DNA of 46,228 bases, taken from the NCBI GenBank assembly GCA_020725195.1, contig DYFL01000016.1:1-46228 (forward strand), given 5' to 3'. The stretch's first letter is position 1. Each line of letters opens with the position of its first letter. The DNA is from Hydrogenophilus sp. Lineage in GTDB: Bacteria > Pseudomonadota > Gammaproteobacteria > Burkholderiales > Thiobacillaceae. The notes below the pieces were generated by a model. That model was not told the DNA's origin and did no database searches. It saw only the letters and a list, made by a program, of their open reading frames with translations. Below, piece after piece: positions 738 to 41,012 of this stretch. The translations under genes and the position numbers were made by a program.

Positions 738-2074
738 CACGCCTCCTGGCCCTGGCCTGGCTGTGCCTGGCGCCTGCCGCGCTGGCGGCCAGGCCGCTCA
801 CCCTCGAAGAGGTGCTGGCCGCCGCCGAGGCGCCCCACCCCGAGCTCGATGCGTCCGCGGCGCAGCGCGAGCTGGCCGAGGCGGAGGCCGCCCTGGCCGA
901 AAGCCTCAACGACCTGCGCGTCACCCTGGAGGGCAGCCTGCGCAGCGGCCGCAACCGCTATAGCGGCAGCGATTTCGAGCCGGACAACAGCCTGCGGCTC
1001 AACCTGCGCAAGACCCTCCTCGACGGCGGCCGGCGCGAGGCCGGCGCGGCGGCGGCGCGGCAGGAGGCCGCCGCCCGCCACCTGCAGTGGCTGGATGCCC
1101 GGGCCCAGCGCCGGATCGCCCTGATGAGCCGCTACTTCGACGTCCTGCTCACCGACATGAGGTACGCCGCCGACAACGAATTCATGGCGGTGGCCTACGT
1201 CAACTGGGACAACGCCCGCGAGCGCCTGGAGCTGGGGCAGGTCTCGGCCCCCGAGCTGGCCGCCCTGGAGGCCGAGTTCCAGGGCTGGCGCATCCAGCGC
1301 AACGATGCCGAGCGCAAGGCGCGGGAGAGGCGGGCCTGGCTCGCCTCGGCCCTGAACCGGCCGGGGGAGCTGCCCGGCGAGCTGGCCGACCCGCGCCTGG
1401 CGGCCAACGACAGGCCGCTGCCCGGCTTCGAGCCCCTGCTCGCCCGCATGCAGGCGCAGAACCCGGAGCTCCTGGCGCAGAAGCAGCTGCTGGCGGCCTC
1501 GCGGCACCGGCTGGAGGCCTTGCGCGCGGACACCCTGCCCAGCCTGGAATTCGAGGCCGAGGCCGCGAGCTGGAGCCGCGAGGCCGTCACCCGCGACGAC
1601 CTGCGCGCCGGCGTCAACCTGGTCTGGCCGCTCTACCAGGGCCGGCGCGTCGATGCGCGCCTCGCCCGCGAGCAGGCCCGGTTCCATCTGCTCCAGGCCC
1701 AGCACGAGCGCCTGCAGCTCGACCTGCGCCAGGCCCTCTACGAGACCTGGCAGGACATCCAGCAGCTGCGCGAGACCGAGCGCCGCGCCGCCGAGGTCGA
1801 CGCCGCCCACCGGGATCTCGCCCTGGAGAAGGCCCGCGCCGAATACGAGCTGGAGCTCAAGACCAATCTGGGCGCCAGCATGGCGCATACCCAGGGCGCG
1901 GCCCTGCGCCGGCGCGCCGTCGAATACCGGCTGGCCCTGGCCTGGGCGCGCCTGGAGGGGCTTCTGGGTGGCCCTGTCGAAGCCCAGGCGCCGGCACAGC
2001 CCCGGGCAGGTACGGACAGTTCCCTGGCGCAAGGCGAGCCGGGGCCAAGCTCATCAGGGGGCGAAGTGAAATGA
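734..2074 (+). CDS. TolC-family outer membrane protein
   Basis: Outer membrane efflux/secretion channel of about 446 residues. It begins with a signal peptide (VTRLLALAWLCLAPAALAA), then the duplicated OEP repeat with long Ala/Glu/Arg-rich coiled coils. Motifs typical of each half are visible: LTLEEVLAAA near the start, LNLRKTLLDGG in the first beta segment, and VNLVWPLYQGRRVDA in the second. The GTG start at 734 overlaps the preceding stop, and the gene overlaps the next start by 4 bp (ATGA), making a tight three-gene operon. The Pro/Ser/Gly-rich C-terminal tail has no obvious function. It should pair with the downstream HlyD-like adaptor, but the transported substrate cannot be told. Confidence 0.87.
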   Translation: MTRLLALAWLCLAPAALAARPLTLEEVLAAAEAPHPELDASAAQRELAEAEAALAESLNDLRVTLEGSLRSGRNRYSGSDFEPDNSLRLNLRKTLLDGGRREAGAAAARQEAAARHLQWLDARAQRRIALMSRYFDVLLTDMRYAADNEFMAVAYVNWDNARERLELGQVSAPELAALEAEFQGWRIQRNDAERKARERRAWLASALNRPGELPGELADPRLAANDRPLPGFEPLLARMQAQNPELLAQKQLLAASRHRLEALRADTLPSLEFEAEAASWSREAVTRDDLRAGVNLVWPLYQGRRVDARLAREQARFHLLQAQHERLQLDLRQALYETWQDIQQLRETERRAAEVDAAHRDLALEKARAEYELELKTNLGASMAHTQGAALRRRAVEYRLALAWARLEGLLGGPVEAQAPAQPRAGTDSSLAQGEPGPSSSGGEVK

Positions 2075-2814
2075 ACGGGCGGAACGGGTTCATAGGCTTG
2101 CTGATGGCGGGCACTGCGTGGGCGGCCGACCATCCTGCCGAGCTGCACTGGTCCCAGGCCGTCGCGGTGTCCGTGCCGGTGTCCGGCGTCGTCGAACGGG
2201 TCGCGGTCCAGCCGGGCCAGACGGTCAGGCAGGGCGAGCTGCTGCTCGCGCTCGACGCCACCGTGTACCAGGCCGCGGTGCTCGAGGCGCGGGCCGACAT
2301 CGAGCGGCTCACGGAGGACGCGGCCGAGGCCCGGCGGGACCTGGACCGGGTGAAGGAGCTCTACGCCCGCACGGTATCCTCCACCACCGAGCTGGATGCC
2401 GCCAAGTTGCGCCAGGCACGCGCCCAGGCCCAGCTCGCCGCGGCCCAGGCCCGGCTCGAGCGGGCCCGGCGCCAGCTGGCGGAGACCGAGCTGCGCGCGC
2501 CCTTCGATGCGTTGGTGACCGACCGGCAGGCCGAGCCCGGCCTGGTGGTCGCCGCCCAGTGCCAGCCCCCGGCGCTGCTGACCCTGGCGCACGCCGGCGA
2601 GATCCTGGCCCGGGCACGGCTCACCCCCGCCCAGGCGGCCGGGGTGCGCATCGGTGCCGCGGCGAGCGTCCAGGCCGGCGGTCGCAGCCTGTCCGGCCGG
2701 ATCGTGGCCCTGCGCTACGCCGCGGGCGAGCGGCCGGCCTACTGGGTCGAGGTGGCCGTGCCCCGAGCCCCCGGCCTCATGGCCGGGCAGGCGGCCAGCA
2801 TCCGGCTGCCGTAA
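2071..2814 (+). CDS. HlyD/RND-type periplasmic adaptor subunit
   Basis: Short membrane fusion protein (247 residues) that would link an inner-membrane pump to the TolC-like channel. After a signal peptide (to about residue 19, TAWAAD) comes the lipoyl/barrel-sandwich half-motif VSGVVERVAVQPGQTVRQGELLLALD, then an alpha-helical hairpin (about residues 65-140, rich in Ala, Arg and Glu). The second lipoyl half is LRAPFDALVTDRQAEPGLVV, followed by a beta-barrel domain. At under 250 residues it is shorter than the usual 350-400 and lacks a long membrane-proximal domain. The ATG overlaps the tolC-like stop. No transporter gene follows: the next sequence is a hairpin and then an inverted-orientation repeat array. 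The pump may lie elsewhere or left of the window. Confidence 0.83.
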   Translation: MNGRNGFIGLLMAGTAWAADHPAELHWSQAVAVSVPVSGVVERVAVQPGQTVRQGELLLALDATVYQAAVLEARADIERLTEDAAEARRDLDRVKELYARTVSSTTELDAAKLRQARAQAQLAAAQARLERARRQLAETELRAPFDALVTDRQAEPGLVVAAQCQPPALLTLAHAGEILARARLTPAQAAGVRIGAAASVQAGGRSLSGRIVALRYAAGERPAYWVEVAVPRAPGLMAGQAASIRLP

Positions 2815-2820
2815 GGCAAA

Positions 2821-2846
2821 GGGCGCGAGGCTGGCCCCTCGCGCCC
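2821..2846 (+). terminator. Hairpin after the efflux operon
   Basis: Perfect 10-bp stem GGGCGCGAGG / CCTCGCGCCC with a 6-nt loop, starting 6 nt after the adaptor stop codon. No T tract follows, so it is either a weak intrinsic terminator or an RNA 3'-end protecting stem. It also separates the plus-strand operon from the minus-strand repeat array. Confidence 0.5.
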
Positions 2847-2864
2847 CGTGCCGCCGCGGGTGGA

Positions 2865-3343
2865 TCACGCCGCCTGCCGATACCGCTCCTTGGCGGCGCG
2901 GGCCTCGCGCGCCTCTTCCGGCGTGTAGGCCCTGCCCGACCAGAGCATGCGGTAGGCGATTTCTTCGTTGCCGTTTTGGCTCCGGCCGCTTCGCTTAACC
3001 TGGGCTTGCGCCCAGGTTAGCCTGCACCGAAACGGCAACGAAAGCCGCTACGCGGCCGCCGCGTACCGCTCCTTCGCCATGCGGGCCTCGCGCGCCTCTT
3101 CCGGCGTGTAGGCCCTGCCCGACCAGAGCATGCGGTAGGCGATTTCTTCGTTGCCGTTTTGGCTCCGGCCGCTTCGCTTAACCTGGGCTTGCGCCCAGGT
3201 TAGCCTGCACCGAAACGGCAACGAAAGCCGCTACGCGGCCGCCGCGTACCGCTCCTTCGCCATGCGGGCCTCGCGCGCCTCTTCCGGCGTGTAGGCCCTG
3301 CCCGACCAGAGCATGCGGTAGGCGATTTCTTCGTTGCCGTTTT
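2865..3343 (-). repeat. 183-bp tandem array of the 3' end of the downstream gene
   Basis: Three head-to-tail units with a period of exactly 183 bp start at 2865, 3048 and 3231. Each has about 113 bp matching the last ~36 codons and stop of the minus-strand gene at 3231-3683 (segments 2865-2977, 3048-3160, 3231-3343). Identical 70-bp linkers lie at 2978-3047 and 3161-3230. Units at 3048 and 3231 are identical through the coding part; the distal unit at 2865 differs at its end, coding ...AKERYRQAA-stop in place of ...AKERYAAAA-stop. Each linker contains a perfect stem AACCTGGGC-TTGC-GCCCAGGTT and ends with an inverted copy of the gene's own TTCGTTGCCGTTT, so linker plus flank can fold into a long quasi-palindrome. 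The stretch 2847-3230 holds no other gene. Confidence 0.9.
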
Positions 3344-3683
3344 CGCACAGCTCCAGCACCTTCTGGAACAGGGGCTGGAAGGTCTCGGAGCGGTGCGACT
3401 GCTCGTGCTGCTCGAAGGACTGCCAGAAGGTCACGATCAGCGCCTCCTTGTCCTTCAGCGGGCTTTCCACGGCCTGGCCGATGGTGGAGCCCTCGTTGGA
3501 CACCGCGCCGCTGTTCAGGCAGACGAAGCCGCCCACGAAGCCGGTCTCGGAGTGGTAGGTCTTCACGTTCTCGCACAGCGTCGCCACGCGCTCCTCCAGG
3601 TCCTCCACCGCATACCCGGGTTTGAGGATCACGCGGTTGATGGTCACCACACCGTCCGAATCGAAGCCGTTGATCAGCGACAT
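3231..3683 (-). CDS. Small ABM/SOR-fold protein, resembles half of a sulfur oxygenase reductase
   Basis: A 150-residue soluble protein with the look of a ferredoxin-like dimeric alpha/beta-barrel domain (antibiotic-biosynthesis-monooxygenase clan). Compared with sulfur oxygenase reductase (SOR) sequences as I remember them, several SOR motifs recur in order: a Cys at residue 37, GFVG at 48-51, FW at 86-87, and HExxHR at 93-98 (iron ligands in SOR), then a Met-Leu-Trp at 124-126. The third SOR iron ligand, a Glu after the tryptophan, is not at the equivalent place, and the protein is half the SOR length. Function is therefore open. The start is the ATG at 3683, preceded by AAGGAGGAT; an in-frame TTG at 3701 lies upstream of that site. 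The promoter is at 3762-3790. Confidence 0.6.
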   Translation of the reverse strand: MSLINGFDSDGVVTINRVILKPGYAVEDLEERVATLCENVKTYHSETGFVGGFVCLNSGAVSNEGSTIGQAVESPLKDKEALIVTFWQSFEQHEQSHRSETFQPLFQKVLELCENGNEEIAYRMLWSGRAYTPEEAREARMAKERYAAAA

Positions 3684-3733
3684 CACATCCTCCTTCAGCA
3701 AATTAGCAACAACTAATTAACAAGGTCCGAGAA

Positions 3734-3753
3734 GAAGCGCACCACGGCGCTTC
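3734..3753 (-). promoter_or_regulatory. Leader hairpin of the SOR-like gene
   Basis: Perfect 7-bp inverted repeat GAAGCGC-N6-GCGCTTC between the promoter and the start codon of the minus-strand gene. It would form a stem at or near the 5' end of the mRNA, or could be a second protein-binding site. Function is inferred from position only. Confidence 0.4.
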
Positions 3754-3759
3754 ACACCC

Positions 3760-3790
3760 ATACCTTAGTAATCTACTCGGGTATTGTCAA
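3760..3790 (-). promoter_or_regulatory. Sigma-70 promoter with an IscR/Rrf2-like operator between -35 and -10
   Basis: On the minus strand a perfect -35 TTGACA (3785-3790) is followed after 17 bp by TAAGGT (3762-3767). The space between them and the -10 is filled by an imperfect palindrome, ATACCTTAGTA-N3-TACTCGGGTAT (3760-3784), whose arms match at 9 of 11 positions. By eye it agrees with about 21 of 25 positions of the published IscR type 1 consensus. A repressor of the Rrf2 family bound here would block the polymerase. No Rrf2 gene lies in the window. Confidence 0.6.
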
Positions 3791-3842
3791 GCTTGTCTTA
3801 TGGCCCCGCAAGCCGGCCTTATGGCCCCGTCAGGCCGACTGC

Positions 3843-3893
3843 TTGCGCGGCGGGGGCGATCGCTCTATCCTGCCCGAATCGAACGATCGTTCT
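3843..3893 (+). promoter_or_regulatory. Promoter and palindromic SOS-like box of the Y-family polymerase
   Basis: A plausible -35 TTGCGC (3843-3848), 17-bp spacer and -10 TATCCT (3866-3871) are followed at the expected transcription start by the perfect 12-bp palindrome GAACGATCGTTC (3881-3892), inside CGAAC-N4-GTTCT. This resembles the Gram-positive-type LexA box CGAAC-N4-GTTYC more than the E. coli CTGT-N8-ACAG box. It lies about 10 nt before the ATG and covers the place of the ribosome site, for which no good SD is visible. Confidence 0.5.
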
Positions 3894-15508: not shown

Positions 15509-15606
15509 TTTCCGCAGGTGCGCGCGGATTCCCACAGACGGGTCGGGCAAGGGCCTGACGCCGTAGGGTTTCATCTGCGTGCATCTGCGTCATCTGCGGA
15601 TTCCGG
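15509..15606. repeat. 'CAGATG'-word inverted element, copy 1
   Basis: The right arm (15572-15601) reads CATCTGCGTGCATCTGCGTC, then ATCTGCGG. The left arm (from about 15511) is a decayed complement, CCGCAGGTGCGCGCGGATT. It lies between the convergent M48 peptidase and nadB. Copies 2 and 3 are at 25478-25606 and 40868-41012. Confidence 0.6.
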
Positions 15607-25477: not shown

Positions 25478-25606
25478 ATTTGATCCACAGATTGCGCAGA
25501 TTCACACAGATGATTCAAAGCATTTCGAGCCGCCGGTCCCACATGAGCGGCAAAGGCCTATCGTCGATTTCCATCTGCCCTCATCTGTGTCATCTGCGGA
25601 TGAGGA
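25478..25606. repeat. 'CAGATG'-word inverted element, copy 2
   Basis: The left arm (about 25484-25513) has the words CACAGATTGCGCAGATTCAC and ACAGATGATT; the right arm (about 25580-25603) has CATCTGTGTCATCTGCGGAT. The arms are complementary in type and enclose about 65 bp of unrelated sequence, so the whole can fold back on itself. It fills most of the rnc-era gap and ends 11 bp before the era ATG. Confidence 0.65.
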
Positions 25607-25613
25607 AAACACG

Positions 25614-26783
25614 ATGACCTTCCGCACCGGCTTCATCGCCGTGGTGGGGCGCCCCAACGTGGGCAAGTCCACCCTGGTGAACCTCCTGGTCGGCGCCAAG
25701 ATCAGCATCACCTCGGCGAAGCCCCAGACCACCCGCCACCGCATCCTCGGCGTGCGCACCCTGGAGGATGCCCAGTTCGTCTTCGCCGACACGCCCGGCT
25801 TCCAGACCCGCCACCGCAGCGCGCTCAACCTGGCCATGAACCGGGCCGTGCGCGAGGCCCTGCAGGAGATGGACGCCGTGCTCTGGGTGGTGGAGGCGCT
25901 GAAGTACACCCCCGGGGACGAGGAGGTGCTCGGGCTCCTGCCCCGCAACCGGCCGGTGGTCCTGGTGGTGAACAAGGTCGACCAGGTGCCGGACAAGGCT
26001 GCGCTCCTGCCCTATCTGGAGGCGATGGCCAAGCGCTTCGTAGAGGCATCGGCGCGCAGCGCCACACCGTCCCTCTCCCCCCTTGGGGGAGAGCAAGGAG
26101 AGAGGGCCGAGGCATCGGCGCGCAGCGCCACACCGTCCCTCTCCCCCCTTGGGGGAGAGCAAGGAGAGAGGGCCGAGGCATCGGCGCGCAGCGCCACACC
26201 GTCCCTCTCCCCCCCCGGGGGAGAGCAAGGAGAGAGGGCCGAGGCATCGGCGCGCAGCGCCACCGCATCCCTCTCCCCCCCCGGGGGAGAGCAAGGAGAG
26301 AGGGCCTTCGCCGCCATCGTCCCCGTGTCCGCCCTGAACCCCAAGGACGCAGCCTATCTGCTCGATGTGCTCAAACCCCTCCTGCCGCAGATGCCGCCGC
26401 TGTTCGAGGCGGAGTCCATCACCGACCGCAGCGAGCGGTTCCTCGCCGCCGAGATCCTGCGCGAGAAGGTGTTCCGGCTCACCGGCGACGAGATCCCCTA
26501 CGCCGTGGCGGTGACCGTGGAGCGCTTCGAGGAGGAGCCGCCGACGCGGCCGGAGGCGGAGCGGGGCCTGATCCGCATCGACGCGGTGATCTGGGTCGAC
26601 CGCGAGGGCCACCGGCCCATCCTCCTCGGGCACAAGGGCGAGCGCATGAAGCGCATCGCCACCGAGGCGCGCCAGGACATGGAGCGCCTGTTCGGTGCCA
26701 AGGTGTTCCTGAGCACCTGGGTCAAGGTGAAGAGCGGCTGGACCGACAGCGCCGCGCTGCTGAAGCGCATGGGGTATGAGTGA
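25614..26783 (+). CDS. era: GTPase Era with a four-copy repeat insertion
   Basis: Essential GTPase that binds the 3' end of 16S rRNA during 30S maturation. The frame codes 389 residues against about 300 normally. G1 GRPNVGKST, switch 1 TTRHRILGV, G3 DTPGFQ and G4 NKVD (VVLVVNKVDQVPDK) are normal, as are G5 (IVPVSALN) and the C-terminal KH domain with GHKGERMKRI. Between G4 and G5, residues 144-231 are four tandem 22-residue repeats (EASARSATPS...GGEQGERA) coded by 66-bp units; without them the protein would be 301 residues. The insertion lies in the loop before the strand that carries G5, so the fold may tolerate it. Start ATG 25614 begins the conserved MTFRTGFIAVVGRPN. Confidence 0.95.
   Translation: MTFRTGFIAVVGRPNVGKSTLVNLLVGAKISITSAKPQTTRHRILGVRTLEDAQFVFADTPGFQTRHRSALNLAMNRAVREALQEMDAVLWVVEALKYTPGDEEVLGLLPRNRPVVLVVNKVDQVPDKAALLPYLEAMAKRFVEASARSATPSLSPLGGEQGERAEASARSATPSLSPLGGEQGERAEASARSATPSLSPPGGEQGERAEASARSATASLSPPGGEQGERAFAAIVPVSALNPKDAAYLLDVLKPLLPQMPPLFEAESITDRSERFLAAEILREKVFRLTGDEIPYAVAVTVERFEEEPPTRPEAERGLIRIDAVIWVDREGHRPILLGHKGERMKRIATEARQDMERLFGAKVFLSTWVKVKSGWTDSAALLKRMGYE
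26043..26306 (+). repeat. Four in-frame 66-bp tandem repeats inside era
   Basis: Units start at 26043, 26109, 26175 and 26241 with a period of exactly 66 bp, 264 bp in all. Units 1 and 2 are identical; unit 3 has CCCCCCCCGGGGG where the first two have CCCCCCTTGGGGG; unit 4 has that change plus GCATCC for CCGTCC. Each contains a 9-bp stem, CTCTCCCCC / GGGGGAGAG, the core of a common type of intergenic palindrome. The array is open on both strands. Confidence 0.97.
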
Positions 26784-40867: not shown

Positions 40868-41012
40868 AATCCGCAGATGACGCAGATGCACGCAGATGAA
40901 AACCCCGTGGCATCAGGACGTCGCCGGGTATTCCTGGGGCACCGCCGTGGTGTCCCAGCTGCAAGCGCAGGCCTTTGAAACATCTGCGTAAATCTGCGTG
41001 CATCCGCGGATG
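40868..41012. repeat. 'CAGATG'-word inverted element, copy 3
   Basis: The left arm (40868-40900) has ATCCGCAGATGACGCAGATG and CACGCAGATG; the right arm (40980-41012) has CATCTGCGTAAATCTGCGTG and CATCCGCGGATGG. The arms are about 80 bp apart and largely complementary. The most complete of the three copies; it fills the gap before coq7. Confidence 0.7.

Follow-up and report, generated by a model that had tools for sequence, protein, structure and literature searches.

An in-frame array of four dispersed palindromes in the essential gene era, probably an insertion of the triplex-motif type, and a possible role of DUF559 nucleases in its spread

The window, the whole stretch of DNA analysed here, comprises 46,228 nucleotides of a Thiobacillaceae-like draft genome (2.84 Mb in 108 contigs). 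It contains era on the forward strand at 25614 to 26783, an ORF of 389 residues for which the ORF call, Pfam and alignment give a GTPase domain, a KH domain and an insert of 88 residues. The insert lies between the motifs NKVD (25971 to 25982) and SAL (26328 to 26336), which we take to be the G4 and G5 motifs of Era. It is encoded by four 66 bp units on the same strand: unit 1, EASARSATPSLSPLGGEQGERA, at 26043 to 26108; unit 2, identical to unit 1, at 26109 to 26174; unit 3, two bases different from unit 1, at 26175 to 26240; and unit 4, five bases different, at 26241 to 26306. TRF describes the array (26043 to 26306) as having a period of 66, 4.0 copies, 97% matches and 0% indels (score 479), and every unit encodes 22 residues and is free of stops. 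TRF and translation therefore agree with the original prediction of four in-frame units of which the first two are identical, and translation and alignment agree with it that they lie between the two GTPase motifs. The product has a computed mass of 42.3 kDa; without the units a recount gives 301 residues, as had been claimed, and 33.8 kDa. The insert is rich in Ala (19%), Ser (18%), Glu (14%) and Gly (14%). There is no second normal era in this 2.84 Mb, 108-contig draft, where the four other matches are at 31–34% and are confined to the G domain.

There are two palindromic structures in each unit. The upstream one is a hairpin, GGCGC-GCA-GCGCC, which lies at 26051 to 26063 in unit 1 on the forward strand, recurs every 66 bp and was recognised from the sequence and from covariation with other copies in the genome. 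The other is the palindrome core CTCTCCCCC/GGGGGAGAG, which pattern searching places at 26073 to 26093 (unit 1), 26139 to 26159 (unit 2), 26205 to 26225 (unit 3) and 26271 to 26291 (unit 4); the two halves, separated by any three bases, are found in 4/4 units with 0 mismatches. The arms of the unit continue from GGGGGAGAG through three bases to GGAGAGAGGG, the middle arm being shortened.

The site of the insert was compared at 109 Era loci, 80 from named genomes and 29 from the taxonomic family. There is no insert of any kind in 108 of these and the remaining one has a run of N at this point. The repeat is found in 0/108 readable homologues, which rules out an old conserved domain of Era, an alternative that the original prediction had itself raised. 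Relatives from the nearest genus read KRF-D-FAAIVPVSA in the alignment where this Era reads KRF-V-(88 residues)-FAAIVPVSA. Identity to the six nearest aligned relatives is 77–80%, and the closest named Era, from a Thiobacillus MAG, is at 71%. No target-site duplication is visible at era, the one site compared, against five relatives; a further relative (L114) was aligned to the wrong place and was excluded.

Judged from the standard fold topology, the insertion point presumably lies at that end of the G domain which faces away from the nucleotide. In comparison with E. coli Era (1EGA), the insert falls between residues 145 and 147, after helix alpha4. In an AlphaFold2 model (mean pLDDT 77, pTM 0.60) the helix preceding the insert extends to residue 150, a weak helix is modelled at 205–218, and pLDDT is below 50 at 31–40, 154–204 and 221–226. 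The insert is therefore predicted by the model to be mostly disordered.

Searching the genome with the array identified seven further matching places (E 1.3e-9 to 1.8e-4), several of which share the upstream hairpin, spacer and arm layout of era. The era-unit pattern, at up to 3 mismatches, has 81 forward-strand matches in the genome (some of them overlapping by two bases) against 2 for the reversed control, and the commonest form of the palindrome has 80 against 0. With their shortened purine (middle) arm the era units fall outside the exact pattern behind the count of 80, so their membership of the family rests on the array matches, the mismatch-tolerant pattern counts and the shared layout; the same arm layout as in Era is present at the copies L002, L004, L005 and L007. 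A third purine arm, of mirror type, accompanies 54/68 elements in this genome and 54/56 elements in the one-contig genome of a sister genus (G045), in each case on one flank and not the other, compared with 3/136 when the flanks are shuffled. The tetramers 5' of the 54 elements of this genome include GTCC (11) and CGTC (2), and CGTC precedes the core in the Era unit. A pyrimidine arm and two mirror-related purine arms place the family, as read from its sequence, with the intrastrand triplex motif (TM/PIT) type. The exact form is present in 85/117 genomes with a patchy distribution, and the count is highest in the genome studied here.

The upstream five-pair hairpin is present in a subset of family copies, Era included. 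In an alignment of ten copies, hand-picked for three-base loops (L005 and L189, whose loops are different, were omitted, as were L002 and L201, which repeat the same stem), 90% of cells are paired, there are compensatory changes and the covariation score is 0.373 against 0.089 (0/500 shuffles). Under a strict definition, GC triloop hairpins were not enriched next to palindromes (3/78 versus 10/148), whereas a looser hairpin motif was enriched (9/68 versus 10/255, p 0.0075). Because the strict test failed and the looser one passed, we regard the hairpin as the mark of a subfamily only.

Family members are also located within other genes. Fifty-one of the 80 exact palindromes, those among the matches listed, were examined by a frame test that used codon usage trained on six genes of the window (1893 codons), and 15 of them lie in frame within genes, in a single frame that scores best for coding on either side and stays open throughout. 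By Pfam, the hosts are an EPSP synthase (aroA), a ManC-type guanylyltransferase (manC, two palindromes), an FAD-binding protein, a MetG-type synthetase (metG), an aminotransferase, a CobQ-type protein (cobQ, two palindromes), a UvrD-type helicase (three palindromes), a kinase-like protein, a RAMP protein and a DNA methylase (two palindromes). The palindrome breaks the Pfam profile into two or three stretches in EPSP synthase, nucleotidyl transferase, FAD_binding_4 and IGPS; it lies just past the domain in the RAMP protein, Pfam covers only the first 48 residues of the DNA methylase, and some hits fall between domains. Beyond the 51, copies were seen in MnmC-type, IGPS, DNA polymerase I, UvrA-type and DUF3108 proteins. 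The same frame test places 5/52 palindromes of G045 within genes, one of them, by eye, at about the same place in a helicase gene as in the present genome. The array in era is no isolated accident: about 15 other genes of the same genome have copies of the family within an open coding frame.

In the recG gene of this genome (L191), an in-frame DUF559 domain lies between two palindromes, and we therefore tested the flanks of DUF559 loci in general, using the pattern relaxed to accept CCCTCCCCC variants carrying one substitution in each arm. Of 30 loci from the taxonomic family (the best-scoring among the matches listed, one per genome), 20 have a palindrome within 150 bp on either flank, eight on one flank and two on neither. 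The corresponding figures for 29 Era control loci are 0, 4 and 25, and random placements within the same DUF559 loci gave two-sided flanks in 0/880. Within 300 bp, the DUF559 loci have palindromes on both sides in 23, on one side in six and on neither in one, and random placements have them on both sides in 2/880. In the 20 two-sided pairs the third arms, by eye, point inward and the flanking copies face each other. At 28 DUF559 loci outside the taxonomic family, the pattern is found within 200 bp on both sides in 13, on one side in 10 and on neither in five, and the inverted-repeat score of the flanks exceeds the highest of 204 controls (14) in 17/28, a score that is no proof of orientation as the core reads alike on both strands. 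One of these loci, L281, is flanked by a long inverted repeat (score 98 versus the control maximum of 14) and is a candidate for a recently moved element. A nuclease gene bounded by copies of a repeat, as in an insertion sequence with MITE-like derivatives, is what these loci display. That the protein is a nuclease is supported by a solved relative, the 'Endonuclease-Like Protein' structure 3HRL, and by a relative from Caulobacter (PMC12907096).

The number of palindromes in a genome also follows the number of DUF559 genes. Across 117 genomes Spearman's rho is 0.73 for DUF559 and 0.32 for Y1_Tnp. DUF559 is found in 21 of the 22 genomes with at least 20 palindromes and in three of the 61 with at most two, while Y1_Tnp is found in 19 and 39 of them, respectively; DUF559-positive here means the 44 genomes with matches of at least 87 bits, the other seven of 51 having weaker matches and being excluded. 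A second set covered the phylum (247 genomes, this genome and G045 being left out). There, strong DUF559 matches occur in 28/35 genomes with at least 10 palindromes and in 30/212 others (Fisher 1e-14), with 60 of the 86 DUF559 genomes counted and the weaker ones excluded. The genomes in these statistics are related, and their independence is overstated. The phylum set has counter-cases of both kinds, seven palindrome-rich genomes with no strong DUF559 match and 30 DUF559 genomes that are not rich. In the E. coli control genome the profile search gave no DUF559 match, although TM motifs exist in E. coli. Position and co-occurrence suggest that DUF559 may be the mobiliser of the family.

DUF559 might instead be a passenger, collecting in the same permissive places as the palindromes or acting on structured DNA at palindromes that are spread by a RAYT-type Y1 transposase or by errors of replication and repair. 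Genes for Y1_Tnp do exist (two in this genome) and have their weak correlation with palindrome number, the seven palindrome-rich genomes of the phylum set point the same way, and the accessible text on a Caulobacter DUF559 protein calls it Vsr-like (PMC12907096). However, there was no palindrome at any of the four Y1_Tnp loci examined, compared with 28/30 DUF559 loci with one within 150 bp, and the flanking copies of the 20 DUF559 pairs face each other. The passenger role is quite possible without being likely. A RAYT as the obvious mobiliser was rejected on the 0/4 loci and the weak correlation.

DUF559 also occurs in frame within host proteins. By Pfam, the host parts on either side of it belong to radical SAM proteins (Radical_SAM_N and DUF3362) in five genera, to RecG in two, and to an MmeI and a phosphoribosyltransferase in one genus each. 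We take the radical SAM host with Radical_SAM_N and DUF3362 to be YgiQ, and the phosphoribosyltransferase to be CobT. In the radical SAM proteins at L256, L251, L255, L259 and L268, DUF559 follows approximately profile position 200 of 301 of Radical_SAM_N. The recG gene at L191 (G000:C65:13770-18200, at 1069-3858; G000 is the present genome) carries the palindrome-DUF559-palindrome insert close to its N terminus, and ahead of SATPIPR it has another insert of palindrome type. The pair of palindromes flanking its DUF559 did not pass the codon-frame test and was not counted with the 15; Pfam finds the frame continuous. The RecG of G047 (L271) likewise contains DUF559, and because the site is common to both genera it looks inherited rather than recent. 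DUF559 is also seen beside what seems, by eye, to be the same gene in two genera, at L179 (G000:C58), L258 (G045) and L264 (G046); this gene is presumably dnaB, and the site appears to be old and inherited. In nine DUF559-host proteins Pfam gives, between the host parts, DUF559 and mostly a weak MTES_1575, and no splicing domain at E 1e-5. An intein with a homing endonuclease would have such a domain around the nuclease.

These data make it probable, in our judgement, that the era array arose by in-frame insertion of a dispersed palindrome of the TM/PIT type that was later multiplied to four head-to-tail copies, with DUF559 as the spreader of the family. A copy would have entered the loop that follows helix alpha4, a place in which an Ala/Ser/Glu/Gly-rich linker of 88 residues would do little harm. 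Slippage or unequal recombination between units could then have raised the copy number, selection on the frame would have retained multiples of three, and the insert would be translated as part of Era. The family would spread by means of DUF559; the gene of this Vsr-like nuclease has copies of the same palindrome on its flanks and itself stands in frame in host genes, and the solo palindromes may be non-autonomous derivatives of the DUF559 element. The entry of a dispersed-type palindrome into a tolerant loop of era and its amplification in frame had been proposed in the original prediction, and this part is supported; what it described as an event in one gene proved to be wider, extending to about 15 other genes of the genome and to a family that tracks DUF559. 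More generally, DUF559 with flanking triplex-motif palindromes could be a class of mobile element that is widespread in the phylum and so far undescribed. It would insert in frame, be translated within the host protein without splicing and seed solo palindromes, which would turn into linkers of conserved enzymes; the Era array would be an extreme product. We advance this general form tentatively, as close to an even call.

The effect of the insert on Era is most likely near neutral. The original prediction had also allowed for a variable linker and for mRNA hairpins that slow translation, and an adaptive array, a linker or an RNA element tuning Era translation or ribosome binding, would be in keeping with the strong predicted RNA fold of the array (−146.6 kcal/mol, z −3.7, 0/200 shuffles) and with four clean copies in an open frame. 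The predicted fold makes a brake on the translation of era possible. Yet the array is missing from 108/109 Era homologues, and the presence of the family in many unrelated genes speaks for tolerance and against adaptation, so we consider an adaptive array unlikely.

It is more doubtful still that the four copies, or the insert as a whole, are absent from the living genome and arose in assembly or binning. The count of four rests on a draft of 108 contigs, and as units 1 and 2 are identical, short reads could miscount the copies. Against an artefact, the frame and the flanking coding sequence are intact on either side of the insert, and there are similar in-frame inserts in other genes and in the single contig of G045. 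Least credible is a local minisatellite, expanded from the sequence of era itself and resembling the dispersed palindromes by chance, for although the array is a clean tandem repeat, the seven places elsewhere match it with the hairpin-spacer-arms layout and the empty site of the relatives has no such sequence.

Returning to insertion of a dispersed palindrome, several known systems resemble it in part. The TM(ECO)/PIT motif of E. coli MG1655 has 23 members; as far as the accessible text goes, it is 'always located intergenically' and is not found with high-mobility elements, and no enzyme is named for its spread (Holder et al., 2015, PMC4666352). Palindromes with triplex motifs are known to be abundant and tied to genome instability. 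The present family has the same arms (CCCTCTCCC ... GGGAGAGGG ... GGGGTGAGGG), is likewise dispersed and has some members in inverted pairs. In contrast with the motif as that text describes it, it is not intergenic only (15/51 copies in open frames), it stands four times in tandem in era, and it is linked to DUF559. Rickettsia palindromic elements (RPE) are similar in being in-frame palindromes within unrelated conserved proteins; on the descriptions available they are set apart by a length of approximately 150 bp, compared with 66 bp GC-rich units and a candidate nuclease here (PMC10969869, PMC2229807). The GTAG and CGTC REPs are also short palindromes with intragenic members, some of them in coding regions including repair genes and with clusters that encode 43 to 82 amino acids; to judge from the available part of that paper, their stems are different and their tags apparently so, and ours go with DUF559 (Di Nocera et al., 2013, PMC3733652). 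The palindrome-flanked RAYT that accompanies such REPs was not seen at the four Y1_Tnp loci. The gene that is bracketed here belongs to DUF559 (PF04480), the PD-(D/E)XK Vsr-like nucleases, which include, by the accessible description, Caulobacter VsrA (PMC12907096) and the structure 3HRL.

Intragenic palindromes are already known from RPE and REP, so the kind of element is a known one. The accessible parts of the DUF559 literature contain no link to palindromic repeats or to in-frame insertion that we could find. Within the reach of that search, three things are new: members of a triplex-motif family lie inside genes, Era contains an array of four units, and the family is tied to DUF559. This tie, being both positional and by copy number, makes the question of the spreading enzyme directly testable. 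Such elements can enter core genes in frame (era, aroA, metG, polA, uvrA and recG), and their inserts are a natural experiment in insertion tolerance and a way in which new linkers and extra domains can arise.

There are other repeats in the window. A second dispersed repeat (TCATCTGCGGAT and relatives) is present in the spacer between rnc and era (25480 to 25614) and also at 15590 to 15601 and 40869 to 40880; the 12-mer of this type has three exact copies in the window, where 0.21 would be expected at one mismatch. Finally, there is a 183 bp tandem repeat (2.5 copies, 98% matches) at 2881 to 3343, which overlaps the 3' end of an ORF on the minus strand (3231 to 3701).
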